The notes under the pieces were generated by a model. It searched no databases, had not been told where the DNA came from, and saw only the letters and a program-made list of their open reading frames with translations. This document shows, in pieces, positions 24,768 to 42,473 of a stretch of 64,000 bases of DNA. The translations under genes were made by a program, and so were the position numbers. Origin of the DNA: Pelagihabitans pacificus (GTDB lineage Bacteria > Bacteroidota > Bacteroidia > Flavobacteriales > Flavobacteriaceae); assembly GCF_009371985.2 (NCBI RefSeq), contig NZ_VIKU02000004.1, forward strand, positions 310,001 through 374,000, given 5' to 3'. Numbering within the stretch: the stretch's first letter is position 1; every line of letters begins with the position of its first letter.

Positions 24768-26096
24768 TCACTTTTCTTGGAGCCTTATTTTTGTAATGAT
24801 GTGCTGCCCTATTTGTTGTCCTTGGGTGATTCCTAGTTCAATGGCAGGACGATAATGGATTCCCCCGTATAATCTGCTAATGGCTGCCTCTTGGGAGGCT
24901 TGATGAAAAGAGGAAAAGCTGCGAACGGGTAATCCGTAGGGGACCTCGGTGGCATCTACAAACGCATAGTTCTTACCAAATAGATGGGTCAGCACGGTTG
25001 CCGCGGCATTGGAGGCTACACTATGACCCGAAGTATGTTCCGGAAATGCCGGGGTCTGTAGTATGGGCATCCAGTCCGGGTCGATATATTCATTGATAAA
25101 AGTCTCTGGACGCGTGAGTTGGCTCCGGTATTTTTGATCCCAACAACTTATAAACGCATCGGCCACCGCGATGCCCACCATAGACATGGTTTCCGCCGCT
25201 AAAACAGGATCAGCTTTTTGTTCTTCCAGTACTTGGGCGGCGATATGCATCCAGTGTCCACCCGGGGAAATCTGCTGTTGGAAGTACATTACATGACCTT
25301 TTGTCGTTGATATATTTGGGTTGCAGTCCCAAAATTTGGCAATCTCGATTTCCACCGTGTCCAGTTGTTTTACGGTTTCATATACTTCCATAGCCTCCTG
25401 ATAGAAACGGGAGCCTTCGGAACTATCGAAAGTGGTCGGCATGCCCGGATCAAACTGATTTGCGGAATCCAGTACAAAAGGTCTAATGGTATTCCAATGC
25501 GGTTCTATCGCTTCCATATAATCCGGGGGCGTTGGTCGCCAACGGCCTGGGTCGTCGGTAACGCTATATCGTGGCAAAGCCGTACGTCTCAGGTATCCGT
25601 CTTTGGCCGCCCACCCCAGAATCGCTTCGGCCAAGTTTTCTCCGTATGTGATTGAGTTGTCATAAATTTCCTTGTCGATTCCAAGCTCCCTCGCTTCCTG
25701 GAGGATTTCCTTTTCCACTTGATCTACTCTTTCCAAATCATACACCAAGGCCTCCCCGACATTCATAAAAGCAACCATCGATACCAACGGATAATAGTAA
25801 TTTTTGTCGTTATCGGGTAGGGGTAAGGTATCCAGGCCGTTCAATTGTCCTACAAAGGAAACCTTCGTCGAATCAAGAAAACGGATACCTTCGTATGCGG
25901 CGATATTGGGATAAGCATAAATACGGCTGGCCACCGGTGGCGTAAAAATATCCGCTACGATGACCTCGGTTAGTTGCCGGTTGTAGCGCGACAGCCCATT
26001 TTCGAAGTACGCATCAAGTTTTTGTAGATCGTGTTTAGGGCTACAGGCCGATAGTGCCAGTATTAAAATAATACCAAACTTATTGAATCGTTTCAT
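24768..26096 (-). CDS. Vanadium-dependent haloperoxidase-like lipoprotein (PAP2 superfamily)
   Basis: 442 aa from the ATG at 26096, which opens a lipoprotein signal (FGIILILALSACSPK); the ATG at 26102 is also possible. All three oxyanion-site motifs are present: KX6RP in KYRSQLTRP, the TSGHS of PEHTSGHSVASN, and SRX5H in SRLYGGIHYRP. The last position of the acid-phosphatase motif (Asp) is not conserved, as in vanadium haloperoxidases. Members oxidise halides with peroxide, though some are phosphatases. It overlaps the CRTAC1 gene stop by 17 nt and is last in the SusCD transcript direction. Halide use is not proven by sequence. Confidence 0.87.
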   Translation of the reverse strand: MKRFNKFGIILILALSACSPKHDLQKLDAYFENGLSRYNRQLTEVIVADIFTPPVASRIYAYPNIAAYEGIRFLDSTKVSFVGQLNGLDTLPLPDNDKNYYYPLVSMVAFMNVGEALVYDLERVDQVEKEILQEARELGIDKEIYDNSITYGENLAEAILGWAAKDGYLRRTALPRYSVTDDPGRWRPTPPDYMEAIEPHWNTIRPFVLDSANQFDPGMPTTFDSSEGSRFYQEAMEVYETVKQLDTVEIEIAKFWDCNPNISTTKGHVMYFQQQISPGGHWMHIAAQVLEEQKADPVLAAETMSMVGIAVADAFISCWDQKYRSQLTRPETFINEYIDPDWMPILQTPAFPEHTSGHSVASNAAATVLTHLFGKNYAFVDATEVPYGLPVRSFSSFHQASQEAAISRLYGGIHYRPAIELGITQGQQIGQHIITKIRLQEK

Positions 26097-29000
26097 CTGC
26101 ATACACTGTTTTGGTGTTTCCTCTTGCATTGGTAATCGCAATCTCTTTGATAAGGTCGTTGACGGTAAAGCTTCCGGTACTTTGTGATAAATAGCCCGAA
26201 CCATTGTAGAACTCCATTCGATACTGTTTTCCAGTATGTAGCATTACGTTGGCAAATTGTGCATCGCCATCAATAGCAATGGCCTTTCGTGCAGCGTTTT
26301 GGACATTGGACTCGAATATCCTTAACGGACCATCATTGTTGGCTGCCAAGACATACCATCCTCCTCGAGCGCTTTGCATGACGGCCAGGCCGCTACCATC
26401 CAAATCGTTCAAAAAGCCACTGGCTTCCCATTCGATATTTTCAAATGTTCCATCGCCCTTCCCTTTGAGGAAACTACCCATCATGGCATCGTATCGTCCT
26501 GTTGCCGCCTCGGTGGCATATGAGTTTCCGGTGAGTAGAAGGTCTTGTATTCCGTCACCATCTATATCCTTTACCACGATTCCCTCTATTGGAGCGGTCT
26601 GCAGGGCTAGCGGTAACGATTGTAGTTCAAATCGCCCTTGCCCAAGGTTTTCTAGATAACTATTGGCAAAATTATGGCTTTTTACGACATAGGCTCCTTC
26701 CAACTCTTCCGGTAAGAACGATTTTTGGAAAGAGGTTTCCGCGTAGGATTCATAGGTGCGAAATCGGCCTCTCATCGCATTGATTTGGCCGATGATCTCG
26801 TCCCTGGAATGGGCCAGATGATTTTCGCCATCGATATAATAACACATCACGGGATCCAGGCGTCCATCCTTGTCATAGTCATTGGCATAGATACAGAGGG
26901 GTTCTTCGGCTGTAGCACGGTATTTGGTGTTGAGTCCAAGATTGCCCAAAATATAATCGGTATCGCCGTCTTGGTCAAAATCGCCTCCATTGATACTGTT
27001 CCACCAACCTTCCGATTTTTCTAGTCCTATAATCTGGTCAGGGGGTTTCAAGTGTCCCTTTTCATTTCGGAAAATAGTAATGGGCATAAATTCCCCTACT
27101 GCGATCAAATCGGTCCAACCATCCTGGTCATAATCCGTCCAGAGTGCGGAACTGACCATGCCAAGTTGCTCCCAATCCGTGATCGTGTCACTAATATCCA
27201 CAAATTTTAAATTAGCTGGATTTCCATCGGAACGATTTTCCAGGAGATAGCTTTTGGCAGGCATCGGATAATTTCCCGGGTCGATTCGACCTGCTACGAA
27301 CAAATCCAAATCACCATCCTTATCATAATCGGAAGCGATAACGGAGGCGCCGCTGGAGGTTATCAAGGGGAGGGCCTCGCCCAATGAAAAATTCCCTTGC
27401 CCATCATTGAGGTACAGACGGTCTTGATAGGGGTTAAAGTCAGAGGGGGCGATACCGCCGCTGACTACATATAGATCTTTATCCCCATCGCCATCCGCAT
27501 CGAAAAATAATGCGCCCATGTCTTCATATTGGTCATCAAAAACGTGGTTGGGTTCAAAACTTCCTTCCGGTTTCTGTAGAAAGAGTTGCCCCGACTGCTG
27601 GAAAGCCCCCCCGATAAAAAAATCCTCCAATCCGTCCGCATTCACATCCGCCACCGCGATACCCGGACCGCCTCGAGAGTGCATATGTGGAAGTATGGGT
27701 TGTAGCTTGAAATCTACAAGTTCGTCTTCCTGGTGGGAGAAGTCGATTCCTAGACTGTCGGTCACCTCCACAAAAAGCGGTTCCCTGGTCGGATTTTGAA
27801 TGGGACGCCGTTGGGAAGCTTCCGATTGGTCGATGATCAGCAGTTGATTGGCAGGTTGTTTTTTGATTGAATGATAGCTTCCGTCGGGCCACCAGACTTC
27901 GATAAGATCAACGGTGGATAAAGTATCCAATCCGAAATGTATGGTGGGGTCTACACTTGACTCGTACCCCCTGCTTAGAAAATGTTGGTAATATTGGTTT
28001 GTGTTACCTGTGGTAATTTTAACCTTTGTCCCGATACCCTGAAGGTTTCCGACTTTTCCTTTTAGTGCCAGTCTTAAAAAATTGTTCCCTGGTCTCTGTT
28101 CACTTAAATTTCTGTAAACAAAGGCGGGTTGGTCTACATTATTGACCAAAAGGTCGAGATCCCCATCATTGTCCAGGTCGGCAAAGGCAGCTCCGTTTGA
28201 ACAGCTTTTTTTGTCAAATCCCCATTCCTCGGATACTTTCTCGAAGGTCATGTTCCCCTTATTTCTAAAGGAATAATTGACCAAATCTGCCTTTGGAAGC
28301 TCTTTTATGGAGTTCTTTTTTTGTTCGATTTTTGCCTCGGCGGTCCCCAATGGATTGTCATAGATACCTTGGTAGTGTATGTAATCCAAGTTACCTAAAT
28401 CCCGTAGGAACCCGTTGGTCACATAAAGATCTTTATGGCCATCATTGTCATAATCGGCCAACAAAGGACTCCAGCTCCAATCTGTGCTGCTGATTCCCGC
28501 CAAAAACCCGATTTCACTAAATTTTCCACCACCTTGGTTTATCTGCAAAGTGTTGCGACTGTACTGCGGATTGTAGCCAGCTTTCAGCATCAATTGAAAC
28601 CGGTCATAACCGGTCGAGGAAATGATTAATTTTTGTCTTTTGTTGTCTTCGGGACGCATATCGAGCACCATGATATCAGGATTCCCATTATTATCGATAT
28701 CGGCCAGGTCGTTACCCATGCCGGCATAGGAGGTGTGTTTGATATGTTCGGTAATCCCGTCTCTGAACGTACCATCTTTTTGGTTGATATAAAGAATATC
28801 GTTTCCAATAAAGTCGTTTGACACATAGATGTCCGGCCAATCGTCGCCATTGATATCCGAAATACCTACTCCCAGGCCATACCCTTCAACTAAAATCCCC
28901 GCTTCCAAGGAGACGTCGACAAAAGTTCCGTCCCCCTCGTTTCGGTACAGGCGATCATTACTTACAGATTGGCCATTGAGCTCCCTCGGTTTACTCACAT

Positions 29001-29592
29001 TTACCTTATATTCGTAGGCCGCCGGGTTGACCAGTAGATACATATCCAAATCCTGATCTCTGTCATAATCGAAAAAGGCGGCATGCATGCTTTGCCGGGT
29101 GTCGTCCAAGCCGTATTCGGAAGCTTTTTCCGTGTAGGTCAAATCGCCATTGTTGATATAAAGTAAATTGGCTCTTTCCGAAATCTTGCCACCTCCGGAA
29201 ACGCACACATAAAGGTCTAGAAAACCATCTTGATTAATATCGACCATGGTAACCCCCGTTTCCCATCTGTTGTTCAATAATCCGGATGTTGCAGTGATAT
29301 CCTCGAACTTAAAATCCCCTAAATTACGATATAGTCTACCCGACTCCATGTTTCCACCGAAATAGACATCTACAAGGCCGTCATTGTCAATATCCCCTAC
29401 TGCCACACCAGCTCCCGTATAGACATTCATATATTGAAATACATTGATGCTGTCGTTCTCAATGATAGTATTTCGGAAGTCGATTCCGGTTCGTGAGGCT
29501 GGTAATAGTTCAAAACGTTGCGGTTTAGTTTGTTTGCACCCACCCGCTAGTATCGCCAAACCAATAAGCAGGTATGTTTTGAACATCTTCAT
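26080..29592 (-). CDS. CRTAC1-type lipoprotein with FG-GAP/VCBS repeats and ASPIC/UnbV domain (copy 2)
   Basis: 1170 aa. Lipoprotein signal LLIGLAILAGGCKQ. Many calcium-binding-like FG-GAP/VCBS units with the core DxDNDGxxDLYV (for example DYDNDGHKDLYVTNG and DLDNDGDLDLLVNN) suggest one or two beta-propellers. An ASPIC/UnbV segment with IEVWWPDGSYH is near the middle (about residues 560-580), and a second repeat block follows. It is probably outer-membrane anchored and binds a glycan or protein. It overlaps its paralogue by 4 nt (ATGA) and the haloperoxidase-like gene by 17 nt. Confidence 0.9.
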   Translation of the reverse strand: MKMFKTYLLIGLAILAGGCKQTKPQRFELLPASRTGIDFRNTIIENDSINVFQYMNVYTGAGVAVGDIDNDGLVDVYFGGNMESGRLYRNLGDFKFEDITATSGLLNNRWETGVTMVDINQDGFLDLYVCVSGGGKISERANLLYINNGDLTYTEKASEYGLDDTRQSMHAAFFDYDRDQDLDMYLLVNPAAYEYKVNVSKPRELNGQSVSNDRLYRNEGDGTFVDVSLEAGILVEGYGLGVGISDINGDDWPDIYVSNDFIGNDILYINQKDGTFRDGITEHIKHTSYAGMGNDLADIDNNGNPDIMVLDMRPEDNKRQKLIISSTGYDRFQLMLKAGYNPQYSRNTLQINQGGGKFSEIGFLAGISSTDWSWSPLLADYDNDGHKDLYVTNGFLRDLGNLDYIHYQGIYDNPLGTAEAKIEQKKNSIKELPKADLVNYSFRNKGNMTFEKVSEEWGFDKKSCSNGAAFADLDNDGDLDLLVNNVDQPAFVYRNLSEQRPGNNFLRLALKGKVGNLQGIGTKVKITTGNTNQYYQHFLSRGYESSVDPTIHFGLDTLSTVDLIEVWWPDGSYHSIKKQPANQLLIIDQSEASQRRPIQNPTREPLFVEVTDSLGIDFSHQEDELVDFKLQPILPHMHSRGGPGIAVADVNADGLEDFFIGGAFQQSGQLFLQKPEGSFEPNHVFDDQYEDMGALFFDADGDGDKDLYVVSGGIAPSDFNPYQDRLYLNDGQGNFSLGEALPLITSSGASVIASDYDKDGDLDLFVAGRIDPGNYPMPAKSYLLENRSDGNPANLKFVDISDTITDWEQLGMVSSALWTDYDQDGWTDLIAVGEFMPITIFRNEKGHLKPPDQIIGLEKSEGWWNSINGGDFDQDGDTDYILGNLGLNTKYRATAEEPLCIYANDYDKDGRLDPVMCYYIDGENHLAHSRDEIIGQINAMRGRFRTYESYAETSFQKSFLPEELEGAYVVKSHNFANSYLENLGQGRFELQSLPLALQTAPIEGIVVKDIDGDGIQDLLLTGNSYATEAATGRYDAMMGSFLKGKGDGTFENIEWEASGFLNDLDGSGLAVMQSARGGWYVLAANNDGPLRIFESNVQNAARKAIAIDGDAQFANVMLHTGKQYRMEFYNGSGYLSQSTGSFTVNDLIKEIAITNARGNTKTVYADETIQ

Positions 29593-32500
29593 AGGATAGG
29601 CAGTATTTCCGTTTGATCCCCGTTGCTATCAATGATTTTCACCGAGGTGGCATCTGCAGGTATTTGAAGCGTACGACTGGAGTGCGAAAGATATCCTCCG
29701 CCGTAGTGAAATTCTACCTTATGTCTTTTGCCATCTTTGAATTCTATAAGCGCACCAACTTCATTTTGTTCGGGCGTGTAGGTTCTATTCGTTTTAGGGC
29801 CTAAGAAAACCTTCAATGTACCGTCGTTGATGCCCACCACGGTCAGCGGACCCTTGTCGGTTTGCAGCGCTACCATTCCTTTGGCATCTCCCGTCACAAA
29901 GAATCCACTTTCGGAAACATCGACCGATGAGAAGCCCCCTTTTCCGTCACCTTTTAGTAGCCAACCAATGGAGGCATCATAGCGGCCCGAGAAGACTTCC
30001 CCACTGTAAAAATTACCAACGGCCAGTATGTCCAGATTGCCGTCGTTGGTATAGTCCTTTATGAGCATCCCATAGATCGGTGCTATTTGTGCCTTCATGG
30101 GCAATTCGGACAGTTTGAATTTGCCTGACCCCAGATTCTCTAAATAAGAATTGGCGAACGTCTCGCTCTTCACAACATAGGCATCGGCAAGCTCCTCCTT
30201 TAAGAACGACTCTTCAAAGGTTGCTTCGGCATAATCGGAATAAGTGCGAAAACGTATGCGCATGGCATTGATTTGATCGATGAGGTCGTTTCGTGAGTGG
30301 GCAAGATAATTTTCTCCATCAATATAGTAGCACATCACCGGATCGATCTGTCCGTTTTTGTCATAGTCACTGGCGTACACACATAAAGGCTCTTTGGCGC
30401 TTGCCTTATATCGGCTATTTAACCCTAGATTTCCGAGGATGTAATCGGTATCGCCGTCGTTATCGAAATCACCCGAGCTGATGCTATTCCACCATCCAGT
30501 AGTATGTTCAAGGCCGGTTTGATCTGTAATCTCATTCAGTATTCCCTGTTTGTTTTCAAATAGGTGAATTTTCATAAACTCCCCAATAACGATTAGGTCT
30601 TGCCATGTATCGTTGTTAAAGTCGGTCCAAATGGCATCGGTAACCATGCCGAGTTCGTCAAATTCAAGGTCAACGGGCTGCGGATCGGCCTCAAATTTAA
30701 TCGTGCCGTCAGCACTATGGTTTTTTAGAAGGCAGCTTGCAGACGGCAGGGGATATGCCCCTGGCCGTATGCGACCCCCCACGAACAGGTCGAGATCGCC
30801 ATCCTTATCGTAATCCGATGCGGCGACCACCGAACCACTTACAAACGATTTTGGAAGCGCATCCGACAAAACGAATATTCCTGAGCCGCTATTTTGATAG
30901 AACCGATCTCGGTATAACGAATCGTTATTCGGAAGGGACGAACCCCCGCTGACCACATATAAGTCCTGATCGCCATCGTTATCGGCATCGAAAAATAGGG
31001 TGCCCATATCTTCGGTCTCGGTTTCGGCCATTGCATTCTGTTCAAATGAGCCATTGGGTCGTTGTAGTAAAATGCTGCCAGACTGCCCTCTTGCGCCCCC
31101 TACGTACATGTCTTCCAAACCGTCATTGTTTACATCCGCGACCGCTATACCCGGGCCATTGCGGGAATGCATGTGTGGTAGAAGGGGTTGAATTTTATAA
31201 TCGACAAATTCGTTTTCAACATGGGCGATATCGAGTCCAATACTGTCCAACGCGTGAAACAGCGTGGTCATTCGGGTCGGTTCGGCTATGTTCGGGGCAG
31301 TTCGTGCATCCTGGTAACGCAGAACCAGCTCTTGATTAACCCGTAAAGGACCTATTTTTTGCTTTTTTCCATCTGGCCAAATGACCTTTAGACTGTCTAT
31401 CCGGGCGGTGGCTCCCAGGCCAAAATGAAGTGCCTGCTCCACGGTCGACAAATAACCACGGTAAGGGGTATAGTATTTTTTCTGTCGTTTTCCTTGGTAA
31501 AAGATTTCCACTTGACTTCCTATCCCTTGCCTATTAGGCATTTTTCCTTCGAAACGGAATCGGATGTAGTTGTCGTTTCCACCTTCCGCGGTATTTTGGT
31601 AGAGACCGGCCGGGTCATCGATATTGTTGATGATCAGGTCTAAATCCCCGTCATTGTCCAGATCGGCATAAACGGCGCCATTGGAATAGGTGGGTTTTGA
31701 GAATCCGCTTTCCTCGGTGATGTCCTCAAAGCTTAGGTCCCCCTTATTTTTGAACATGAAATTATGTATCTTGATTCCTGGTAGTTTGTTCAACTCGTTC
31801 AATCGTTGTTCCCTATTTGCTTCTTCCGTTCCCATCGTGAGTACATTGTTGCCATAGACCATAAAGTCGAGATTGGTAATGTCCTGGCGATAGCCATTGG
31901 TCACAAAAAGATCGTTGAGGCCATCGTTATCGTAGTCGGCCAAAAGAGGACTCCAGCTCCATTCGGTCGCTGAAATTCCTGCGATTTGCCCTATTTCGCT
32001 GAAGGAACCGTTTCCATTGTTCAACTGAAGGGTATTGCGGATGTATTGGGGCTGATATCCATCGGAAATACTGTTTTGGAATTCGTCGTAATTATTGCCC
32101 ATCATGGTGAGCTTCCAGCGTTTGTTATCGGGCGGAAGCATGTCCAAGACCACGACATCCGGATGGCCATCATTGTTGATGTCGGCAATGTCGTTGCCCA
32201 TTCCATTAAAAGTCAGGTGTCTAAAGTAAGACGAGGCCTCGTTCGAGAAAGTCCCGTCTTTTTGATTGATATAGAGAAGGTCATCCGTTAGAAAATCATT
32301 GGAAACATATACATCGGGCCAACCATCTGTATTCATATCGCATATTTCGACCCCTAGACCGAACCCTTCGATTAAAATTCCTGCTTCCTTGGAAACATCG
32401 GTGAAGGTGTTATCGCCATTGTTACGGAAAAGTTTGTCGGCAGAGGGGGCTTTCCCGGTGCGGTCTTTGGGTCTGGGGGTATTGCGATTGAAATCGACCA

Positions 32501-33089
32501 AGGCATTGCTCAAAAGGTACATGTCCAGGTCACCGTCGCCGTCGTAGTCGAAGAAAGCCGCTTGCACCGAATAACTTTCGTCTGCAAGGCCCCATTCCTT
32601 GGCAGCTTCGGTAAAGCCAAGTCGCCCCCCTTTGTTTCCGTTGTTGATAAAGAGGAGGTTGGCACGTTCGGCTCCGGTTGAACCGCGATGCCCACCCTTG
32701 CATACATAGATATCGGGATAACCATCTTGGTTAATATCTACGATGGAAACACCGTTCGACCAGTTTTCGGACCCGACCCTGGCCGATTTGGTAACATCCT
32801 CAAATTTCCAGTCACCCAGATTGCGATACATACGGTTACTGACCATATTTCCCGTAAAATATAGGTCTTGCAAGCCATCTTGGTCAAAATCTGCGACGGC
32901 GACTCCTGCTCCGTTATACATGTACTCGAACTCGAGCACTGAGGGATTGCCCCCTAGAACAAGGGTATTACTGAAATCTACCCCTGTAGTCGATGGTGAC
33001 ATTTCCTTGAACGAAGTATCCGCAATATGTTTACAGCCTACCAGGGTTAGTGCAAGGGGTATAAGAAAATGAAATGGTCGTCGCCTCAT
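29589..33089 (-). CDS. CRTAC1-type lipoprotein with FG-GAP/VCBS repeats and ASPIC/UnbV domain (copy 1)
   Basis: 1166 aa from the ATG at 33089, chosen because it opens a lipoprotein signal (FLIPLALTLVGCKH); the frame is open to 33173. Architecture as in the next gene: VCBS/FG-GAP units (DYDGDGDLDMYLLSN, DYDNDGLNDLFVTNG), an ASPIC/UnbV segment (LKVIWPDGKKQ), then more VCBS units. It is a clear tandem paralogue of the downstream gene, with much of its length alignable by eye. Divergence is high enough that the duplication is old. A hairpin with a T-rich tract lies between it and susD, so its expression may be partly uncoupled. Confidence 0.9.
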   Translation of the reverse strand: MRRRPFHFLIPLALTLVGCKHIADTSFKEMSPSTTGVDFSNTLVLGGNPSVLEFEYMYNGAGVAVADFDQDGLQDLYFTGNMVSNRMYRNLGDWKFEDVTKSARVGSENWSNGVSIVDINQDGYPDIYVCKGGHRGSTGAERANLLFINNGNKGGRLGFTEAAKEWGLADESYSVQAAFFDYDGDGDLDMYLLSNALVDFNRNTPRPKDRTGKAPSADKLFRNNGDNTFTDVSKEAGILIEGFGLGVEICDMNTDGWPDVYVSNDFLTDDLLYINQKDGTFSNEASSYFRHLTFNGMGNDIADINNDGHPDVVVLDMLPPDNKRWKLTMMGNNYDEFQNSISDGYQPQYIRNTLQLNNGNGSFSEIGQIAGISATEWSWSPLLADYDNDGLNDLFVTNGYRQDITNLDFMVYGNNVLTMGTEEANREQRLNELNKLPGIKIHNFMFKNKGDLSFEDITEESGFSKPTYSNGAVYADLDNDGDLDLIINNIDDPAGLYQNTAEGGNDNYIRFRFEGKMPNRQGIGSQVEIFYQGKRQKKYYTPYRGYLSTVEQALHFGLGATARIDSLKVIWPDGKKQKIGPLRVNQELVLRYQDARTAPNIAEPTRMTTLFHALDSIGLDIAHVENEFVDYKIQPLLPHMHSRNGPGIAVADVNNDGLEDMYVGGARGQSGSILLQRPNGSFEQNAMAETETEDMGTLFFDADNDGDQDLYVVSGGSSLPNNDSLYRDRFYQNSGSGIFVLSDALPKSFVSGSVVAASDYDKDGDLDLFVGGRIRPGAYPLPSASCLLKNHSADGTIKFEADPQPVDLEFDELGMVTDAIWTDFNNDTWQDLIVIGEFMKIHLFENKQGILNEITDQTGLEHTTGWWNSISSGDFDNDGDTDYILGNLGLNSRYKASAKEPLCVYASDYDKNGQIDPVMCYYIDGENYLAHSRNDLIDQINAMRIRFRTYSDYAEATFEESFLKEELADAYVVKSETFANSYLENLGSGKFKLSELPMKAQIAPIYGMLIKDYTNDGNLDILAVGNFYSGEVFSGRYDASIGWLLKGDGKGGFSSVDVSESGFFVTGDAKGMVALQTDKGPLTVVGINDGTLKVFLGPKTNRTYTPEQNEVGALIEFKDGKRHKVEFHYGGGYLSHSSRTLQIPADATSVKIIDSNGDQTEILPIL

Positions 33090-33140
33090 TATTCTGGTTT
33101 GGAGCATAAAACGAATATAACAACTACATGTTAAAGAAAA

Positions 33141-33170
33141 GGAATCCAATCTCATAAAAGATTGGATTCC
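33141..33170 (-). terminator. Hairpin with T-rich tail between susD and the CRTAC1 genes
   Basis: GGAATCCAATCT (33141-33152) and AGATTGGATTCC (33159-33170) form a perfect 12-bp stem with a 6-nt loop. On the minus strand the stem is followed by TTTTCTTT. It lies inside the SusCD-to-haloperoxidase series and could attenuate the distal genes. Confidence 0.7.
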
Positions 33171-33205
33171 CAACGGTCTATTAGACCCCTTAACAAACTA
33201 CAAAA

Positions 33206-33394: not shown

Positions 33395-34924
33395 CTAGTA
33401 TCCGGGATTTTGGGTCAATAGCCCTCCGGAGCGGTCTACTTCGGATTGAGGAAACGGGAATACGTTATAGTTGTCGTTCCAAGCACTGCCGAAAATGGTG
33501 GCGCCCAAATTCCAACGTACGATATCGAACCATCGATGCGGTTCCAAGGCCAGTTCCACCCTTTTTTCCTGCATCATGGCCATCAATAAGTCCCCATCGG
33601 CCGCAGTGGTGGGAGCAAGACCGGCCCTTTGCCTGATGTCATCAATTTGGGTTCTTGCGAGCCCCAAATCCCCGCCACCAAGGATTAAAGCCTCAGCGTA
33701 TAATAATTTCAATTCTGCGAAGCGGAACCAGCGCTCGTTGTTAAAATCGGCCTGTTGATTGGGCGCATGGTTAGCGGGGTCGATATTTACTTCGCCTCGG
33801 TATTTCTTGAGGGTATAGTTGGTAGATGACCAAGTAATGTCGTAGGGTAGTGAAGTGAAAGTGGTAAAATAGGTATCCCCATCTTGATAGAGGATGGTAC
33901 TGAGTCTTTCATCACCCTCCTCAAAAGCATCTACCAAATCCTGCGTAGGTGCCCACCAGCCTAATTTACCGCCCGGCGCTCCATTACCAGCATCCCAATA
34001 CCATCCCCTACCTGTGCCTTGGGAAGCTTTGAAATTCTCCGAATGTGTATCATCAAAAACCCAAAGGTTGTCATCCGATTGTGGTCCACCATATTGTACC
34101 TCAAAAATAGATTCGGAATTGTTTTCATTGGTAAAGGCAAAGACATCTTCGTAGCTGGGTACCAGACTATATGGTCCATTGTTGACCACGTCTTCAAAAG
34201 CCGTAATCGCGGCTTGGTAGTCTTCCCTAAAAACGTTCACCTTGCCAATAAATGATTTCGCCGCCCAAGAAGTGGCCCTACCGGTATTGCTCGAATCCCA
34301 AGACTCTGGTAAACCCGAGGCCGCGGTGTTAAAATCTGCCAATATGAAGTCGTAAAGGGCTTCCTGCGTTGCATTGGGCAATGCAAGATCATTGATATCC
34401 GTCAATACTTTATCGGCAATAGGCGGGGTGCCGAACATTTTGAGTGCTTGAAAGTGAAACCAAGCTCTCAAAAATTTCGCCTCTGCTTCCAGAACCGTTT
34501 TGTCCTCGGCGGTCAACTCATTTTCGGCATCCAAATTTCCCAATACCAGATTTGTCCGGTAAATCCCCTCATAAATCTGTGTATAAACCGCTGCATAGGG
34601 GGTATCCGCAGCCCTCAATTGCAAATTATCGATATCAAGGGATATTTGGTCGCCGGCCGCGGTCACGGGGTCGGCGGCAACATCATCGGTAATGACCATC
34701 GATAACTTCCAAAACTCACCTCTTTCGGATAGCGTTTCGGTACTGGTGCCCCAGAAATCTTGGATAGACGAATAGGCAGCAAACATAGCCCCGTCAAAAT
34801 CACCCCTGGTTTTATAAAATGACTCCACTGTGATACTGTCCAAAGGCTGTAGGTCCAATTCATCGCTGCATGAGAACGTCACCAAGGAGAGGATTGCTGT
34901 AAGAATTAAAATTTTTGCTTTCAT
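33395..34924 (-). CDS. SusD/RagB-family outer-membrane nutrient-binding lipoprotein
   Basis: 509 aa from the ATG at 34924, which starts a lipoprotein signal ending VTFSCSDELDLQP. The SusD fold is shown by the N-terminal block LDLQPLDSITVESFYKT, the helical TPR-like middle and the C-terminal block AEALILGG...VELALEPHRWFDIVRW. It caps the SusC channel and binds the substrate. It follows susC by 28 nt. No glycoside hydrolase is fused or adjacent on this strand, unlike classical polysaccharide loci. Confidence 0.95.
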   Translation of the reverse strand: MKAKILILTAILSLVTFSCSDELDLQPLDSITVESFYKTRGDFDGAMFAAYSSIQDFWGTSTETLSERGEFWKLSMVITDDVAADPVTAAGDQISLDIDNLQLRAADTPYAAVYTQIYEGIYRTNLVLGNLDAENELTAEDKTVLEAEAKFLRAWFHFQALKMFGTPPIADKVLTDINDLALPNATQEALYDFILADFNTAASGLPESWDSSNTGRATSWAAKSFIGKVNVFREDYQAAITAFEDVVNNGPYSLVPSYEDVFAFTNENNSESIFEVQYGGPQSDDNLWVFDDTHSENFKASQGTGRGWYWDAGNGAPGGKLGWWAPTQDLVDAFEEGDERLSTILYQDGDTYFTTFTSLPYDITWSSTNYTLKKYRGEVNIDPANHAPNQQADFNNERWFRFAELKLLYAEALILGGGDLGLARTQIDDIRQRAGLAPTTAADGDLLMAMMQEKRVELALEPHRWFDIVRWNLGATIFGSAWNDNYNVFPFPQSEVDRSGGLLTQNPGY

Positions 34925-34952
34925 AATACCTTTTTCTTTTAATATAACAATT

Positions 34953-37900
34953 TTACTTAAAACTAACCGACCATCCGAGTTGGACAATTCTTGGCAGCGG
35001 TGCCTGCCCGTCGTCCTGACCTGTTGCAAGCGGGTTGTTTCCCTTTTGGAAGCTCTGCGCCCTACCGACCTCTGGGTCAAATCCCGAATATCCCGTGAAG
35101 GTAGCCAAGTTTTGGGCACTTACGAAAAAGCGCATGTTTGAGATAAAACCCCCTGTCCAGCTTTGCAGCCGATCTTGAGGTAGCGTATATCCCAACTGAA
35201 TGTTTTGAATTCTCAAATAGTCGGCATCTTCGATAAATCTATCGGAAAGTCGATTGTTTTGATTTGGATCTCCGGGAGCCAGCCGTGGGTTGGAACTTGA
35301 GTTTGTAGAGCCTTCCCCATTCCATCTGTTTACCACCTGGGTACTGAAATTGTTGGTGCCTACCATGCCTTCCAAAGTAATTCTGGAGGAGTTATAAATT
35401 TGACGATCTCCGACACCTCTCAACAACACTGAAAAATCGAAACCTTTGTATTTGGCCTGCAAATTGACACCATAGAAAAAACCAGGATACGGACTACCCA
35501 AGAAAGTTCGGTCATCGGCATTCACCTGACCATCCCCATTGATATCTACAAATCTGATATCACCTGGGGAAGGTGTTCCATTGGCATCAGGCAAGGCGGC
35601 GGCCACTTCCGCATCATTTTGATAGAGGCCATCGGTCTTGTAGCCAAAAAAATGACCCAAACTCTCCCCAACGATCGTTCTGTGTGATTGGGCACCCCCG
35701 ACACCCGCAATAATCTGCTCTACCGGACCGAGACTTTGGACCGTATTTTTTACGGTCGTCAAGTTAGCACCGATTCCATACTCAAAATGATCCCCAATTT
35801 TATTTTGGTAATTGAGAGCCAATTCAATACCAGAGTTGGTGATTTCTCCGGCGTTCGTAGGTGCCGGAAGGAAAAACCCGCTGGTAAAAGGTAACGGAAG
35901 TTGAACCAATGCGTTCTCATTGGTTTTCTTGTAGTAATCAAAAACCCCTGTAATTTTACCTTTTAGCAAGCTAAAGTCAAGGCCAATATCAATTTGTTTC
36001 GAGGTCTCCCAGCCGATAGCACGGTTCGCAAAGGTGGTGGGCGCCGGACCTACCACGGTTCCCTGACCGTCACCGAGCACATAGAAGATATTGTTGTTCA
36101 GAGTGGTGAGAAAGGGAAATGTGTTTGCCGTACCGTCCCCTAAATTCTGGTTGCCCAGTTCGCCATAGCCCACTCTTAATTTGAGATCGTCCAAGAAATC
36201 TAGTTCGCTCATGAAATCTTCCTGGGAAATTCTCCAACCAACCGATATGGAAGGGAATACACCATCCCGGTTGTCTTCTGCAAATTTTGAGGTAGCGTCA
36301 CGACGAATGTTGGCAGTGGCCAAATACTTACCCTTGTAATTATAGGTTAAACGTCCGATGATACCTTGAAGGGTCCAGAGATCCGCTTCGTTGGCACCGG
36401 CGACGGCGGTCCCACTGGCTGCGAAGTTGTCGTTGAAAAGATTTCGTCCCTGTAGGCGTACCTTGTCAAACCTAAATTTTGTTTGTTCGAAGCCGAGGAG
36501 TGCCCCGATATTATGGTCGCCAAAGGTTTTATCGTAAGACAGGGTGGCCCCGGTGGTTATTGTCAATTCTATGGGGCGGGATTGAACCAACAAGGACTGT
36601 CGTGGCGAGTTTCCGTCTAGCGTAGTTTCGGCTTGAAAGAAATCCCCTGTTCCTACATTATAGTCAATACCGATAGAAGGGCGGAGCTTCAGATTATCTA
36701 TGATTTCCCACTCGCCAAAGAAATGGCCCAACACTTTGCGATTTTGAATAGTAGTACTGTTAATCCTGGTATCGGTTAATTGAACCAGGTTTGAAGTACC
36801 TCCGGCAGCTCCCCTGGTATCGGGATTTGATAGATTATATCCCAACGGACCGTCACCGAAAATCTGAAAGAACGGTGCGTTCAATGCTGCATTGAGACCT
36901 GCGTTGAGGGCTCCCTCGCTTTGGGTGAGGCGATCGGACTGACTAATCTGTAGCGATTCGCCGAATTTTAATCGTTTTCCGATTTTGAACTCGGTATTGA
37001 CCCTTAGGGAGTATCTTTCAAATGCCTGGGCTCTTTGAATACCTTCATTATCCAAAAACGAACCGGAAATGTAGTATGTTCCGTTTTCGCCCCCACCGCT
37101 AACACCGACATTGTGGTTTTGTACAAATCCATCCCTGAAAATAGCATCCTGCCAATCTACGAAAGGTTGACCACTAAACGCGGAAAAATCCCTACCGAGC
37201 TCACTTTGAATGGATATGTACTGTTCAACGTCGAGGACACTTAATTGCTCCCTCACCGTGGCGATGGATGCATAACCATCATAGGTGACTTTTGGATCTC
37301 CTCTAGTGCCCTTTTTCGTAGTTATGATAATCACACCATTGGCTCCTCTTGCCCCGTAGATAGCGGCCGAGGCGGCATCTTTTAAAACATCGATCGATTC
37401 AATATCGCTTGGATTAATACTGGCCAGCGGATTGGAATCCGTTGTAGAAGAGGTATTTACGGTTATGTTATTGGTTCCTACAAGCGGCACACCGTCGACA
37501 ACATAAAGTGGATTCGCATCGGCACTCAAGGTTCCTACACCACGAATATTCACACTTACGGGAGCACCGGGATCACCGCTTCGGTTTGTAATGTTGACTC
37601 CAGAAATTGTCCCTGCCAAAATTTGATCGGGGCTTACAATGGGTTGCTTTACAATCTCCGCCGCTCCGATGGACCCCACAGCACCCGTCAGGTCCGCTTT
37701 TCGCTGGGTACCATACCCGACAACGACTACTTCGCGCAATGCCTCGGCATCCTCGACCAGGGTAACATTGATGGTCGATTGTCCATTAATGGCTACCTCC
37801 TGTGTGGCGTATCCTACATAAGAGAATACCAGGGTATTTGCGTCCTCGGGGACAGCGATCGAATAGTTTCCGTCAAAATCGGAAACTGCCCCCGTATTCG

Positions 37901-38066
37901 TTCCTTTAACTACGATACTCGCCCCGGGCAATGGCCCCTGTGAATCGGAAACCGTACCCGAAATCGTGGTTTGGGCATTCATTGAATGTACTCCAAATAA
38001 AAGAGCCAGGATAAATGTGAGGTAGAGAGCCTTCAATCTATCCTGCTTAGAGAAGCTTTGTTCCAT
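34953..38066 (-). CDS. SusC/RagA-family TonB-dependent outer-membrane transporter
   Basis: 1037 aa from the ATG at 38066; a TTG two codons earlier is unlikely. Signal peptide (FILALLFGVHSMNAQ), then a carboxypeptidase-D-like regulatory domain (TISGTVSDSQGPLPGASIVV), a plug domain opening LREVVVVGYGTQRKADLTG, and a 22-strand barrel with aromatic-rich segments. It imports the ligand bound by SusD, driven by TonB. It is first in the leftward unit. A -7 box and the 23-bp shared element lie 64-99 nt upstream. Confidence 0.95.
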   Translation of the reverse strand: MEQSFSKQDRLKALYLTFILALLFGVHSMNAQTTISGTVSDSQGPLPGASIVVKGTNTGAVSDFDGNYSIAVPEDANTLVFSYVGYATQEVAINGQSTINVTLVEDAEALREVVVVGYGTQRKADLTGAVGSIGAAEIVKQPIVSPDQILAGTISGVNITNRSGDPGAPVSVNIRGVGTLSADANPLYVVDGVPLVGTNNITVNTSSTTDSNPLASINPSDIESIDVLKDAASAAIYGARGANGVIIITTKKGTRGDPKVTYDGYASIATVREQLSVLDVEQYISIQSELGRDFSAFSGQPFVDWQDAIFRDGFVQNHNVGVSGGGENGTYYISGSFLDNEGIQRAQAFERYSLRVNTEFKIGKRLKFGESLQISQSDRLTQSEGALNAGLNAALNAPFFQIFGDGPLGYNLSNPDTRGAAGGTSNLVQLTDTRINSTTIQNRKVLGHFFGEWEIIDNLKLRPSIGIDYNVGTGDFFQAETTLDGNSPRQSLLVQSRPIELTITTGATLSYDKTFGDHNIGALLGFEQTKFRFDKVRLQGRNLFNDNFAASGTAVAGANEADLWTLQGIIGRLTYNYKGKYLATANIRRDATSKFAEDNRDGVFPSISVGWRISQEDFMSELDFLDDLKLRVGYGELGNQNLGDGTANTFPFLTTLNNNIFYVLGDGQGTVVGPAPTTFANRAIGWETSKQIDIGLDFSLLKGKITGVFDYYKKTNENALVQLPLPFTSGFFLPAPTNAGEITNSGIELALNYQNKIGDHFEYGIGANLTTVKNTVQSLGPVEQIIAGVGGAQSHRTIVGESLGHFFGYKTDGLYQNDAEVAAALPDANGTPSPGDIRFVDINGDGQVNADDRTFLGSPYPGFFYGVNLQAKYKGFDFSVLLRGVGDRQIYNSSRITLEGMVGTNNFSTQVVNRWNGEGSTNSSSNPRLAPGDPNQNNRLSDRFIEDADYLRIQNIQLGYTLPQDRLQSWTGGFISNMRFFVSAQNLATFTGYSGFDPEVGRAQSFQKGNNPLATGQDDGQAPLPRIVQLGWSVSFK

Positions 38067-38129
38067 AATCAAATAGTTTAAGTTAGTTAATCTTACTGCT
38101 AGGGTCTGTAGAACAACATGTCATATTTT

Positions 38130-38152
38130 ATAGACTATGATACACTATGCTA
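38130..38152 (-). promoter_or_regulatory. 23-bp shared element, susC copy (candidate operator)
   Basis: On the minus strand it begins TAGCATAGTGTATC and contains CATAGTNTAT twice with a 10-bp period. It matches the copy at 38506-38528 at 21 of 23 positions. It lies 5 nt downstream of the susC -7 box, over the expected transcription start. Confidence 0.72.
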
Positions 38153-38157
38153 CTAAT

Positions 38158-38165
38158 CAAATGTA
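38158..38165 (-). promoter_or_regulatory. -7 promoter box for susC
   Basis: Minus strand TACATTTG, an exact TAnnTTTG match, with transcription expected from near 38151. No -33 TTTG is seen at the usual spacing. Confidence 0.55.
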
Positions 38166-38480
38166 CTATAAAAAAATCAATCCTTTAAAAATTTTCACTT
38201 GAAAAATTATAATATGGTAATAAAGTAACCTTTAGCCTGAATAATCCATAGTTTTAATTATGCCATTTCTTATTCAAAAATCTTTTCGTCAGAATACGTT
38301 TCAAACGGTAGCGGTTCGATATTGTAGCAGTTGATTCTTTTGGTCGCAACCTATCTCTTTTGGGGGAGTTTCCGGTCACTTGAAGTTACAAAACATACGA
38401 TTAGCCTATAGAGAACTGTTTAACTTGTACCCAGGTTTAGTATAAATATCATTTTTTTAACTAAATTTAATTCATTATTC

Positions 38481-38488
38481 TATATTTG
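38481..38488 (+). promoter_or_regulatory. -7 promoter box for the GH36/symporter unit
   Basis: TATATTTG, an exact TAnnTTTG match. The start near 38494 would give a leader of about 310 nt before the GH36 gene. Confidence 0.55.
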
Positions 38489-38505
38489 CGGACAGTTTTG
38501 ATAAA

Positions 38506-38528
38506 TAGCATAGTATATCATAGTATAT
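38506..38528 (+). promoter_or_regulatory. 23-bp shared element, GH36 copy (candidate operator)
   Basis: It begins TAGCATAGTATATC and holds CATAGTATAT twice in direct tandem (38509-38518, 38519-38528). It stands 17 nt downstream of the plus-strand -7 box, in the same orientation relative to transcription as the susC copy. Confidence 0.72.
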
Positions 38529-38711
38529 TACACACTACATAGACCTGTTACCGGTCCACTAAGAAAATCGGATCTGGTTTTCCAGACCCTTTTAGAATTA
38601 GGCGACAGTGTTTTTCAAATTAATGGTGGCGTTATTTTTTGGTTGGTATGCCATTAGTGGAAAAGGGTGGAGAAACAATAAATGATTTTTTGAATTGAGT
38701 TAGTTATGTAG

Positions 38712-38754
38712 TTTGACGAAGCCAAGTGATGTTGATTGCTTGGCTTTCGTCAAA
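38712..38754 (+). promoter_or_regulatory. Long hairpin in the GH36 leader
   Basis: TTTGACGAAGCCAAG (38712-38726) pairs with CTTGGCTTTCGTCAAA (38739-38754), with one bulged base and a 12-nt loop. There is no T-run after it on either strand, so it is more likely an mRNA structure or processing site than a terminator. It ends 52 nt before the start codon. Confidence 0.5.
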
Positions 38755-38806: not shown

Positions 38807-40606
38807 ATGAGTACGTTTGCATCGAAAAACAAGTATATGACCCGCACATTGGCTACCGCCGTATCCGATATCGATATTCTTGGCGTCCAAGCCGGTGTTG
38901 AAACCATCTTGACCAAGGTATATGAAGTCAATGATGTAGTCTTATACGATTTTCAAGTTTCTTCGGAGGCACCCCTTTATCCGAAACCTATTACGTTAGG
39001 TTGGAAAGTGCCCGCTTTTAATGTGAAGGGGGTTTGGAAACCGACCGCTGACTTTTCAAAACGCATCCAAGCCGATTGGGAGCTAGATCATATGCAATCC
39101 AGGATATCCGTTGATGCCCCCGTCATTGGACTTTTTGGAAACGATGACAGCAACTTGCTCACCTTCGCCTGTTCAGACCCCATCAGCACCTTGGAATTGA
39201 ATGCCAGATTGCGAGAGGAGGACAAGCACTTTCATTACCATATCACTTTCTTTTCCGAGCCAGAACAGCCTATAACCGATTTTAAAATACAGCTGCGTTT
39301 GGATTATAGTAACTCACATTTTTCAAAGGCACTCGACGCGGTTTCAAAATGGTGGGAAGGCTTTGAACCATTAAAACCGGCCTATGTGCCAGCGATTGCA
39401 AAGAAGCCTCTCTACTCCACGTGGTACCAGTTTCATCAAAACCTGGATTTAGAGGTGCTGCACGAGGAGTGTAGGTTAGCACATGATTTGGGTTATAAAG
39501 CGGTCATCATCGATGATGGGTGGCAAACGAAGGATACCAATCGCGGCTATGACTTTACCGGTGATTGGCATCCCGAAGGAATTCCAGGGATGGCTACTTA
39601 TATTGATCGCCTTCATTCATTGGGGATGAAGGTCGCCCTCTGGTATTCTGTGCCTTTTTGTGGAAAGAAATCGAAGGCTTACCAAAGGTTCAAGGGCAAG
39701 TTCCTTACAGAGGATCATCGTTGGGCACCGGTATTCGATCCCCGTTATCCCGAAGTACGGGACTATCTCATTTCCGTATACAAAAATGCTTTGAAAGAAT
39801 GGAAACTGGATGGGTTCAAGCTCGATTTCATCGATGACTTCCGTTTATATCAAGATACTCCTCTTGGGCGCGATAATGGTCGTGACTATGCTTCTATCAA
39901 TGAGGCCGTAAACCGTTTGATGAGCGATGTCATGAGTACACTTCGCGCCATCAATCCGGAAATATTCATCGAGTTTCGACAAAAATATATTGGTCCGGCG
40001 ATGCGAAAATATGGCAATATGTTCCGTGCTTTTGATTGTCCGGGGGATGCTACCATGAATCGGGTACGGATTGCGGATATTAGAATGCTTGCCGGGGATA
40101 CTGCTGTTCATGGGGATATGATTACCTGGCATCCCGGGGAATCGGTAGAAGTCGCCGCACTTCAATTAGTGAACACCTTGTTCGGGGTTCCGCAGTTATC
40201 GGTGATGCTACAAGATCTCCCGGCATCGCATCGGACTATGATTCGATTCTATACCAGCTATTGGAATACCCATGGCAAGGAACTGACATCGGGTGATTTC
40301 GTCCCGCGGAAACCCCTGGCCAATTATCCTATCCAGAAAGTTGCCAAAGGGGCTTACACTATCATTGGAGTATACGATGAATATGTCGTCACCCTTGAGC
40401 ATGTCGACATCCATTTGCATTTGTTGAACGCACAGATTGCAGACCGATTGACGGTACATTGCGTGACCGATTTTGGTAGCTATCTGGGGGTTGTTTATGA
40501 TTGCCAAGGTACTGTTGTTTCGGAAGGGCTGTACAGTCTTTCCAAAGGATTGGTTCAAATCTGGGTACCCCCATGTGGAATGGTACAACTTAGAAAGAAC
40601 ACCTAG
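38807..40606 (+). CDS. GH36-type alpha-galactosidase (melibiase clan D), cytoplasmic
   Basis: 599 aa. A beta-sandwich N-terminus is followed by a TIM barrel. GYKAVIIDDGWQT is near residue 230, the nucleophile Asp lies in KLDGFKLDFIDD, and the acid/base Asp probably in FRAFDCPGDATM. No signal peptide, so it works in the cytosol. It would cleave alpha-galactosides brought in through SusCD and an inner-membrane carrier. An in-frame ATG at 38837 is a possible shorter start. The symporter follows 217 nt later. Related clan D specificities such as raffinose-type or galactosylglycerol substrates cannot be told apart here. Confidence 0.87.
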   Translation: MSTFASKNKYMTRTLATAVSDIDILGVQAGVETILTKVYEVNDVVLYDFQVSSEAPLYPKPITLGWKVPAFNVKGVWKPTADFSKRIQADWELDHMQSRISVDAPVIGLFGNDDSNLLTFACSDPISTLELNARLREEDKHFHYHITFFSEPEQPITDFKIQLRLDYSNSHFSKALDAVSKWWEGFEPLKPAYVPAIAKKPLYSTWYQFHQNLDLEVLHEECRLAHDLGYKAVIIDDGWQTKDTNRGYDFTGDWHPEGIPGMATYIDRLHSLGMKVALWYSVPFCGKKSKAYQRFKGKFLTEDHRWAPVFDPRYPEVRDYLISVYKNALKEWKLDGFKLDFIDDFRLYQDTPLGRDNGRDYASINEAVNRLMSDVMSTLRAINPEIFIEFRQKYIGPAMRKYGNMFRAFDCPGDATMNRVRIADIRMLAGDTAVHGDMITWHPGESVEVAALQLVNTLFGVPQLSVMLQDLPASHRTMIRFYTSYWNTHGKELTSGDFVPRKPLANYPIQKVAKGAYTIIGVYDEYVVTLEHVDIHLHLLNAQIADRLTVHCVTDFGSYLGVVYDCQGTVVSEGLYSLSKGLVQIWVPPCGMVQLRKNT

Positions 40607-40823: not shown

Positions 40824-42473
40824 ATGTTGCCCATTCTCTCTTTTGCCGGCTTTACTTTATTAGTAGCGTTCATAGCGTGGTACGCTACCAGAAGCACCAA
40901 TGAAAAGACAGCCGACGGCTATTATCTAGGCGGTAGAAGTCTTGGTGCCGTTACAATCGCAGGTTCCCTTTTGCTGACTAACCTATCTGCCGAACAAATA
41001 GTGGGTTTGAACGGACAAGCCTTTACGGAGGGCATCTTGGTGATGGCTTGGGAAACCCTGGCGGCCATCGCGATGATTTTAACGGCCATCATACTGTTGC
41101 CCAAGTATATGAAAGGAGGTATTACCACCATTCCCCAATTCATAGAAAATCGTTTCGATAAACAGACCAAGGCCATTTTGTCGGTCTTGTTTCTCTTTGC
41201 CTATAGTTTGGTCTTATTGCCTACTATTCTTTATTCGGGTTCCCTAGCCTTTAGCTCGATGTTCGATTTACCCTCGATGCTGGGAATGAGTCAAAACGCT
41301 ACTATCTGGTTGTGTGTTTGGAGTATCGGCATTATCGGGTCGATTTACGCTATTTTTGGAGGACTCAAAGCGGTCGCGGTCTCCGACTTAATAAATGCCA
41401 TTGGTCTGATTGTCGGGGGATTGCTTATTCCCTATTTTGGATTGAGAATGATTGGTGACGAGAATATTGGTCAAGGACTCGACATTCTTTGGAACAACCA
41501 CCCTGAGAAATTCAATCTGAAAGGGGAGGTCGATTCATCGATTCCGTTCGGCACCATTTTTACAGGTATGATTCTGGCACAGGTGTACTATTGGGGTACG
41601 AACCAGTCGATTTTACAACGGGTATTTGGCGCCAAAAGCTTAAAGGAAGGGCAGAAAGGGGTTATTCTTGCCGCTTTGGTAAAATTTCTGATTCCTATTG
41701 TTGTGGTGCTCCCAGGGGTTATCGCTTGGCATGTGTTCGACGGGGATTTGGCCAATGCCGACCTGGCCTATCCGGAATTGGTCCGTAAAGTATTACCACC
41801 GTCCCTCGTCGGTTTTTTTGCGGCGGTTTTATTCGGTGCGGTCCTCAGTTCCTTTAATAGTTTATTGAATAGTAGTGCTACCTTGTTCGGCTTTGACCTT
41901 TTCAAACAGTATTTTAATCAGGAAGCTACGGAACTACAGACCGTAAAGGCAGGAAAGACATTCGGGTTGATCTTAGCGGTAGTATCGATGACCATCGCAC
42001 CGTTTATCGCATCGGCCCCCGATGGCTTATTTGCTTATATCCAGGAGTCGTTGGGGAGTTTAAGCGTCCCGATCTTAGCGGTCGTTTTTGTGGGAATCTA
42101 TACCAAACGAGTACCTGCATTGGGAGCAAAGATTGTTTTGACCGTCGGGGTGGTGATGTATCTTATTAGCCAATTTGTACTAAGCCCAATTTTGGTCGAA
42201 AGCGCTTTGGAAGCTGCTGCTGCCAGTGGCATTACGGATCCAAAGGAATTGCGTGTAATCGGGGCCAAGGCCTATCCACACTTTTTACATATCATGGGAA
42301 TTCTATTTGTGGTGAATGTGGGAATCATGCTTCTGGTCGGTAGACTAAAACCGAAGACCGACGTTCCGACTGAACTACAAACCGACCAAATTGATACGAC
42401 CCCTTGGAAGTACGCCCTTTTGGCGGGTGGCATCATTACCGCAATGGTCTTAAGCACCTATTTGATTTTTTAG
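40824..42473 (+). CDS. Sodium:solute symporter (SSS/SLC5 family)
   Basis: 549 aa with about 14 hydrophobic helices. Typical segments are DGYYLGGRSLG after the first helix, LLLTNLSAEQIVGLNGQAF, and GLKAVAVSDLINA in the middle, as in SGLT-like sugar symporters. It lies 217 nt after the alpha-galactosidase on the same strand with no obvious terminator between, so they are probably co-transcribed. Sugar or glycoside uptake across the inner membrane, coupled to sodium, is the likely role in a marine organism. Confidence 0.9.
   Translation: MLPILSFAGFTLLVAFIAWYATRSTNEKTADGYYLGGRSLGAVTIAGSLLLTNLSAEQIVGLNGQAFTEGILVMAWETLAAIAMILTAIILLPKYMKGGITTIPQFIENRFDKQTKAILSVLFLFAYSLVLLPTILYSGSLAFSSMFDLPSMLGMSQNATIWLCVWSIGIIGSIYAIFGGLKAVAVSDLINAIGLIVGGLLIPYFGLRMIGDENIGQGLDILWNNHPEKFNLKGEVDSSIPFGTIFTGMILAQVYYWGTNQSILQRVFGAKSLKEGQKGVILAALVKFLIPIVVVLPGVIAWHVFDGDLANADLAYPELVRKVLPPSLVGFFAAVLFGAVLSSFNSLLNSSATLFGFDLFKQYFNQEATELQTVKAGKTFGLILAVVSMTIAPFIASAPDGLFAYIQESLGSLSVPILAVVFVGIYTKRVPALGAKIVLTVGVVMYLISQFVLSPILVESALEAAAASGITDPKELRVIGAKAYPHFLHIMGILFVVNVGIMLLVGRLKPKTDVPTELQTDQIDTTPWKYALLAGGIITAMVLSTYLIF

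Follow-up and report, generated by a model that had tools for sequence, protein, structure and literature searches.

The window analyzed here is a 64,000-nucleotide stretch of the Pelagihabitans pacificus genome. It contains two divergently transcribed groups of genes, the susC arm and the GH36 arm, and a candidate regulator next to the end of the susC arm. The genes are laid out as follows.

23753–24766, plus strand: candidate repressor with a GntR winged helix and a LacI/periplasmic-binding-protein-like domain, the AraR architecture (Pfam GntR and Peripla_BP_3, a LacI-like predicted fold, co-occurrence with the operator described below)
24768–26204, minus strand: PAP2-family protein, end of the susC arm
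26080–33173, minus strand: two large FG-GAP/ASPIC-UnbV proteins of 1170–1194 residues (26080–29592 and 29589–33173), downstream of susD
33395–35119, minus strand: susD (Pfam SusD_RagB)
34953–38072, minus strand: susC, a SusC/RagA-type TonB receptor and the first gene of the susC arm (TIGR04056, 882 bits; likely ATG at 38066–38064)
38807–40606, plus strand: GH36-like glycosidase, first gene of the GH36 arm (Melibiase, 26.3 bits, just below the 27-bit cut-off)
40824–42473, plus strand: sodium:solute symporter, second gene of the GH36 arm (Pfam SSF; PRK10484 model, 714.7 bits)

The predicted fold of the GH36-like protein (mean pLDDT 80.3) matches GH36 alpha-galactosidases. Relatives of the FG-GAP/ASPIC-UnbV pair adjoin susCD and GH36 in many of the clusters inspected. 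Elsewhere in the window, ketoacyl synthases, a lipid-A-type acyltransferase, an aromatic amino acid lyase and a FAD halogenase-like protein are clustered between 744 and 19400, in what we take to be a flexirubin/aryl-polyene pigment cluster.

The original prediction was that the two arms share a 23-bp element in the same orientation relative to transcription. Read directly, the letters are TAGCATAGTGTATCATAGTCTAT at 38152–38130 (minus strand) in the susC arm and TAGCATAGTATATCATAGTATAT at 38506–38528 (plus strand) in the GH36 arm. The two 23-mers are identical at 21 of 23 positions, and each is oriented alike relative to the gene that it precedes, so the element is present as described. A 20-bp part of it occurs as exact copies at 38130–38149 (minus strand) and 38509–38528 (plus strand). 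When this 20-bp pattern was searched for in the window with up to 3 mismatches, it gave 2 matches, both with 0 mismatches; the same search of 100 shuffles gave a mean of 0.05 matches, and one shuffle reached 2. In the 4.56-Mb genome there are 3 matches, the third having 3 mismatches and lying on another contig. That is, a genome search for scattering in unrelated places returned the two exact copies and this one distant match, and the element is not scattered. In the window search, no copy of the 20-bp pattern was found in the upstream region of the regulator gene itself.

Each 23-mer contains CATAGTNTAT twice with a 10-bp period, as had been claimed. The repetition stands for both window copies, but its second TNTAT is not conserved in relatives, whose susC arms have GAACGC, GGACAT or GAATAA at the last TNTAT. 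A longer motif including the second TNTAT was dropped for this reason. The conserved core was redefined from relatives as an 18-bp operator, TAGCATAGWNTATCATAG, in which two TAKCATAG units follow each other head to tail at a 10-bp period. The operators and the elements around them are as follows.

38135–38152, minus strand: operator O-susC, TAGCATAGTGTATCATAG, spanning about +2 to +19 of the transcript predicted for susC and found at the same place in relatives
38158–38165, minus strand: sigma-A −7 box of the susC arm, TACATTTG, ending 5 nt before the 18-bp core
38481–38488, plus strand: TAnnTTTG box of the GH36 arm, TATATTTG, ending 17 nt before the operator
38493–38500, plus strand: imperfect −7 box of the GH36 arm, CAGTTTTG, in the slot 5 nt before the operator
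38506–38523, plus strand: operator O-GH36, TAGCATAGTATATCATAG, upstream of the GH36-like and symporter genes and conserved in relatives
38712–38754, plus strand: leader hairpin of the GH36 arm, located after O-GH36 and before the gene, preceded by GAGTTAGTT (38697–38705)

A TAnnTTTG box was said to lie just upstream of each copy. This is so for the susC arm but not for the GH36 arm, where the box is 17 nt off and the slot is imperfect; the TATATTTG box at 38481–38488 is a possible alternative promoter of this arm. The slot 5 nt before the GH36-arm site is TAnnTTTG in 4 of 6 same-genus relatives (G003, G004, G005 and G008), while in G001 and G007 it is imperfect, as in the window. More widely, 52 operator sites were compared; these were obtained from 60 rows by removing 7 register-shifted duplicates (+10 bp) and one 3-mismatch match lying 477 nt from susC in G172. 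TAnnTTTG ends 4–7 bp upstream in 40 of the 52, at 5 bp in 27 of these 40. The 12 sites with no perfect TAnnTTTG at 4–7 bp include the GH36 arm of the window and all four extra downstream copies of a two-operator subclade. In a larger set selected by TTTG at 4–6 bp, the spacing is 5 bp in 61 of 74 matches, and the TA of TAnnTTTG, which was outside the search pattern, is present in 73 of 74.

Since the sigma-A box of Flavobacterium psychrophilum is described as spanning −12 to −5 (PMC9723704), and the gap between box and operator is 5 bp, the operator is placed at about +2 to +19. A repressor bound there would be expected to block initiation or promoter escape, and it is from the position of the site alone that we infer repression rather than activation. 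An E. coli-type promoter scan (8 matches vs. 3.9 expected) was left out of the analysis. In the clusters examined, the sites point the same way as the gene that each precedes. The same-strand condition of the site collection fixes this orientation by construction; an independent check is provided by an opposite-strand scan of 48 upstream regions, in which every match was the operator of the divergent arm.

The protein encoded at 23753–24766 had been proposed as the regulator. Its N-terminus matches Pfam GntR (2.3e-09, 37.2 bits; cut-off 27), the winged helix-turn-helix of the AraR subfamily, and its C-terminus matches Peripla_BP_3 (31.4 bits; cut-off 26.5), corresponding to the LacI/GalR-like domain of AraR. 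The predicted structure has a mean pLDDT of 88.3 and a pTM of 0.67, and its best PDB matches, among those listed, are mostly LacI-family repressors, e.g., CelR, LacI and PurR. It is the sole sequence-specific transcription regulator seen among the 34 window proteins scanned with Pfam. The recognition segment of the winged helix is nearly invariant in most of 39 orthologues, and least so in those of G172 and G102, the most distant.

Site and regulator occur together. Exact TAGCATAGWNTATCATAG has 26 matches in 23 of the 397 family genomes searched, and the reversed-pattern control has none in the same genomes. An orthologue of the regulator (E ≤ 1e-70) is present in 33 of the 397, spread over 25 of the 237 genera of this family draw, and the 33 include all 23 genomes with the exact motif; judged by coordinates, an orthologue is no more than 15 kb away on the same contig for 25 of the 26 exact sites. 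These figures lend strong support to the proposed regulator. One exact match, G244:C1:4892098 (L234:6099), is far from the regulator, lacks a TTTG box where one would normally stand, and has no recognized cluster gene within about 6 kb on either side. By our estimate from base composition, about one chance exact match is expected in the family DNA, and this stray match is probably such a one.

With six more genomes of the window's genus added to the 33, there are 39 orthologue-bearing genomes, and in all 39 a site with ≤3 mismatches is found in the 650 nt preceding a susC or GH36 match. The best site has 0 mismatches in 29 genomes, 1 in 3, 2 in 4 and 3 in 3. In dinucleotide shuffles of the 48 site-holding upstream regions, a site was found in 0.0, 0.0, 0.02 and 0.4 regions at up to 0, 1, 2 and 3 mismatches, respectively. 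A looser pattern, TAKCATAGTRTATCATAG with 2 mismatches, matches in 124 of the 397 genomes, and its reversed control matches many too; therefore, only strict or well-placed matches are counted. A search for TTTG-N4–6-motif in the genomes of 84,980 species, which may lack records of the genome that holds the window, gave 74 matches in 69 stretches. The next recognized same-strand gene is susC or GH36 in 71 of the 74, the remaining 3 being truncated where the fragment stops, and an orthologue lies inside the fragment for 53. By title, the hosts of the 69 stretches are given as flavobacterial genera, as Flavobacteriaceae or, in two cases, only as Bacteroidia. The genomes are related and the family and 84,980-species collections overlap, so that none of these counts is a tally of independent events.

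Within the window's genus, a GH36-like relative (E ≤ 1e-60) is found in 9 of 10 genomes. Sites are present on both the susC and GH36 sides in the window genome and in G001, G003, G004, G005 and G008, on the GH36 side alone in G007, and on the susC side alone in G006 and G009. In G002 no GH36 relative passes that threshold, and the regulator is represented only by a paralogue (31% identity); its 2-mismatch site match is on another contig, away from the paralogue. The divergent loci L162 and L176 likewise have one operator for susC and another for GH36, as do three genomes of a further genus, g2. The original prediction joined susCD and the GH36/symporter genes in one regulon, a proposal that gains support both from the sites upstream of susC or GH36 in all 39 orthologue-bearing genomes and from the recurrence of separate operators on the two arms.

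Four genomes (G026, G330, G027 and G080) have a second operator copy 31–37 bp further downstream, with no perfect box of its own. Tandem operators 31–37 bp apart are seen at loci L238, L240, L241 and L242, and L127 has three half-site units in a row. For regulator paralogues of 27–32% identity (8 loci in genus genomes), 10-bp-phased repeats following TAnnTTTG numbered 0 vs. 0.07 expected, and the targets of these proteins may lie elsewhere. At one paralogue locus of G244 (L249, 2565–2620), inverted repeats, unlike the direct repeat described here, were seen by eye after a TATATTTG box; the intergenic region is that between the paralogue and a divergent ORF that is SusC-like by eye.

The GH36-arm leader folds better than its shuffles (z −3.71), and several relatives share both the single-stranded GAGTTAGTT tract and the hairpin (38697–38754). 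The hairpin was not picked up by a terminator scan, whose only terminator-like hit was on the other strand, at 38589–38570, with 0.6 expected. A covariance model of the leader element has matches in 50 of the 397 family genomes at E ≤ 0.05. When 30 matched loci were viewed by eye (at L216 the module lies outside the stretch viewed), many had GTTAGTTT-type tracts before AAGCC...GGCTT hairpins, and some of these modules follow genes with no visible tie to such clusters. Tract plus hairpin is therefore taken as a common terminator style and not as a dedicated RNA; the leader hairpin resembles this widespread flavobacterial style. A small RNA made of GAGTTAGTT and the AAGCCAAG...CTTGGCTT hairpin, pairing with AACTAACT of the susC leader, was considered and dropped on these grounds. 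By coordinates, 11 regulator-bearing genomes have a match of the element inside the cluster: in 8 of them it is located between susD and the gene that comes next, and in the other 3 (G000, G001 and G219) between the operator and GH36. Of 6 susC-type loci viewed in gene orientation, 2 (L198 and L202) have AACTAAC in the 500 nt preceding the match. On the minus strand of L176, the leader hairpin is followed by another operator-like sequence, TAGCATAGAATATCATAA, which precedes the GH36 gene and lies 194 bp downstream from where the first operator starts. The hairpin may either attenuate GH36 or be a relic of rearrangement.

From the sequence comparisons, it is highly probable that both sites serve as operators for a single, locally encoded repressor, the GntR–LacI protein of AraR architecture encoded at 23753–24766. 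The same site–repressor pairing recurs in related flavobacteria. As proposed, the repressor would bind the two half-sites, whose 10-bp period is about one helical turn, side by side on one face of the DNA, and so prevent polymerase binding or promoter escape on both arms. Relief would come from a sugar that the pathway releases, plausibly some alpha-galactoside or a product of it, which would bind the LacI-like domain and free both operons. The SusCD importer, the FG-GAP and PAP2 proteins, the GH36-like glycosidase and the sodium symporter would then be induced together.

How such a protein would read the operator depends on the symmetry of the site. One reading is that a symmetric GntR dimer of the conventional kind binds the operator as a pseudo-palindrome, TAnnATAnnnTATnnTA, and that the repeat is incidental; the Bacillus subtilis repressor AraR, of the same architecture, is described as binding palindromes (PMC4218819). 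The position matrix of the 52 sites does have self-similarity in one inverted register, 0.58 over 17 columns at the best full-length register, and a 9-column overlap reaches 0.62. However, the self-match in the direct register is higher: with the matrix shifted by 10, the 8 overlapping columns agree at 0.82 per column, in a set gathered with a direct-repeat consensus that favors repeat-like sites. Variation among the sites also bears on the matter. Columns 6 and 16 both vary from T to C, whereas their palindrome partners, 12 and 2, are invariant in the 52 sites; thus, it is the direct-repeat partners that vary alike. In columns 8 and 18 alike, G is replaced by C or A in some sites. Since the palindrome partner of column 8, column 10, varies as well, this pair does not discriminate between repeat and palindrome. 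The same change appears in both halves as CACAG twice in G080 and G172 and as CATAC twice in G330. Finally, T13 is G in 9 of the 52 sites, a change that breaks the palindrome while perfecting the repeat. The pseudo-palindrome is therefore unlikely, and the site variation favors recognition of two half-sites in the same orientation. A broader proposal, to which we give about an even chance, is that a repressor of AraR architecture reads DNA head-to-tail through a polar operator of one-turn pitch, fixed in orientation and at an almost constant spacing from the −7 box; site and sigma-A promoter would form one oriented module, placed on susC, GH36 or both in different flavobacteria. If this is true, the two winged helices would have to bind in parallel and not as mirror images, a binding mode not found in the literature consulted on GntR proteins with a LacI-like domain. 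A structural question follows: how can a direct repeat be read by a GntR winged helix that is joined to a LacI-like domain?

Explanations that take the sites away from this protein fare worse than the local repressor. Direct-repeat sites are typical of the HTCS and SusR regulators of Bacteroides, and the sites could belong to a regulator of AraC, hybrid two-component or SusR type that activates both operons; but HTCS repeats are reported as about 21 bp apart and SusR repeats as 67/77 bp apart, compared with 10 here (PMC3878776). No such regulator is found among the 34 window proteins scanned with Pfam, site presence tracks the GntR orthologue, and the site is at the predicted transcription start and not upstream of the promoter, all of which makes an activator of this kind very improbable. 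Even less probable is an action of the element in RNA, as a stability or protein-binding site in the 5′ leaders of both mRNAs. In its favor, the element faces the same way with respect to transcription and its spacing from the −7 box hardly varies; against it are the co-occurrence with a DNA-binding regulator, the half-site changes, which fit recognition of two DNA half-sites, and the result that no Rfam family reaches its gathering score in the region. The resemblance might, lastly, come from a promoter that was recently duplicated from one arm to the other and mean nothing for regulation, as the copies agree at 21/23 positions and share an intergenic region. This is scarcely credible, as the core is kept across many genera while the flanks diverge, and information content drops outside the 18 bp, the preceding base and the −7 box.

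Among known systems, AraR of Bacillus subtilis resembles the present regulator in joining a GntR winged helix to a LacI/GalR-like sugar-binding domain, and it represses sugar uptake and hydrolase genes through several operators; its operators are the palindromes At(T/A)tGTaCGTAcaa(A/T)T (PMC4218819), whereas the site here reads better as a head-to-tail TAKCATAG repeat than as a palindrome. Other branches of the GntR family differ in their C-terminal domains. The regulator has no aminotransferase domain of the MocR type by Pfam, and MocR-type NCBIfam models match only residues 12–91, the winged helix. Nor does it have the all-helical C-terminus of the FadR subfamily, having instead alternating strands and helices in a LacI-like fold. 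NanR of Escherichia coli, of the FadR subfamily, has an effector domain of a different class from that of the regulator here. Like the repressor proposed here, NanR is a GntR-type repressor on a tandem direct repeat, with three dimers on (GGTATA)3 (PMC8012715, PMC4494728). Its operator consists of three hexamers of another sequence, compared with two octamers one turn apart here. FarR, NagQ, NanR and MocR proteins are listed as GntR-family binders of direct repeats (PMC4494728, PMC5320631), and the symmetry of the HypR operator is described as ambiguous (PMC6608401). Direct repeats at susCD-type loci are also described for the HTCS and SusR regulons of Bacteroides thetaiotaomicron (PMC3878776), whose regulators are of other families; the period here is 10 bp, and no such protein is among the 34 scanned.

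For the present locus, the regulator, operator and promoter geometry are given together, in a form readable in genomes by an 18-letter pattern that predicts regulon membership for GH36-like/FG-GAP loci. In the mainly open-access literature searched, no published description of the 18-bp motif or of the regulator was found. To our knowledge, susCD-type regulation in marine flavobacteria is little worked out, one model being AusR. AusR, which uses single, double or triple operator copies, appears to be the closest functional precedent. It acts on the alginate PUL of Zobellia galactanivorans and, as presented in a review, is likewise a GntR-family repressor of a flavobacterial PUL that is kept off the DNA by pathway products (PMC8286568); its substrate genes differ from those here.
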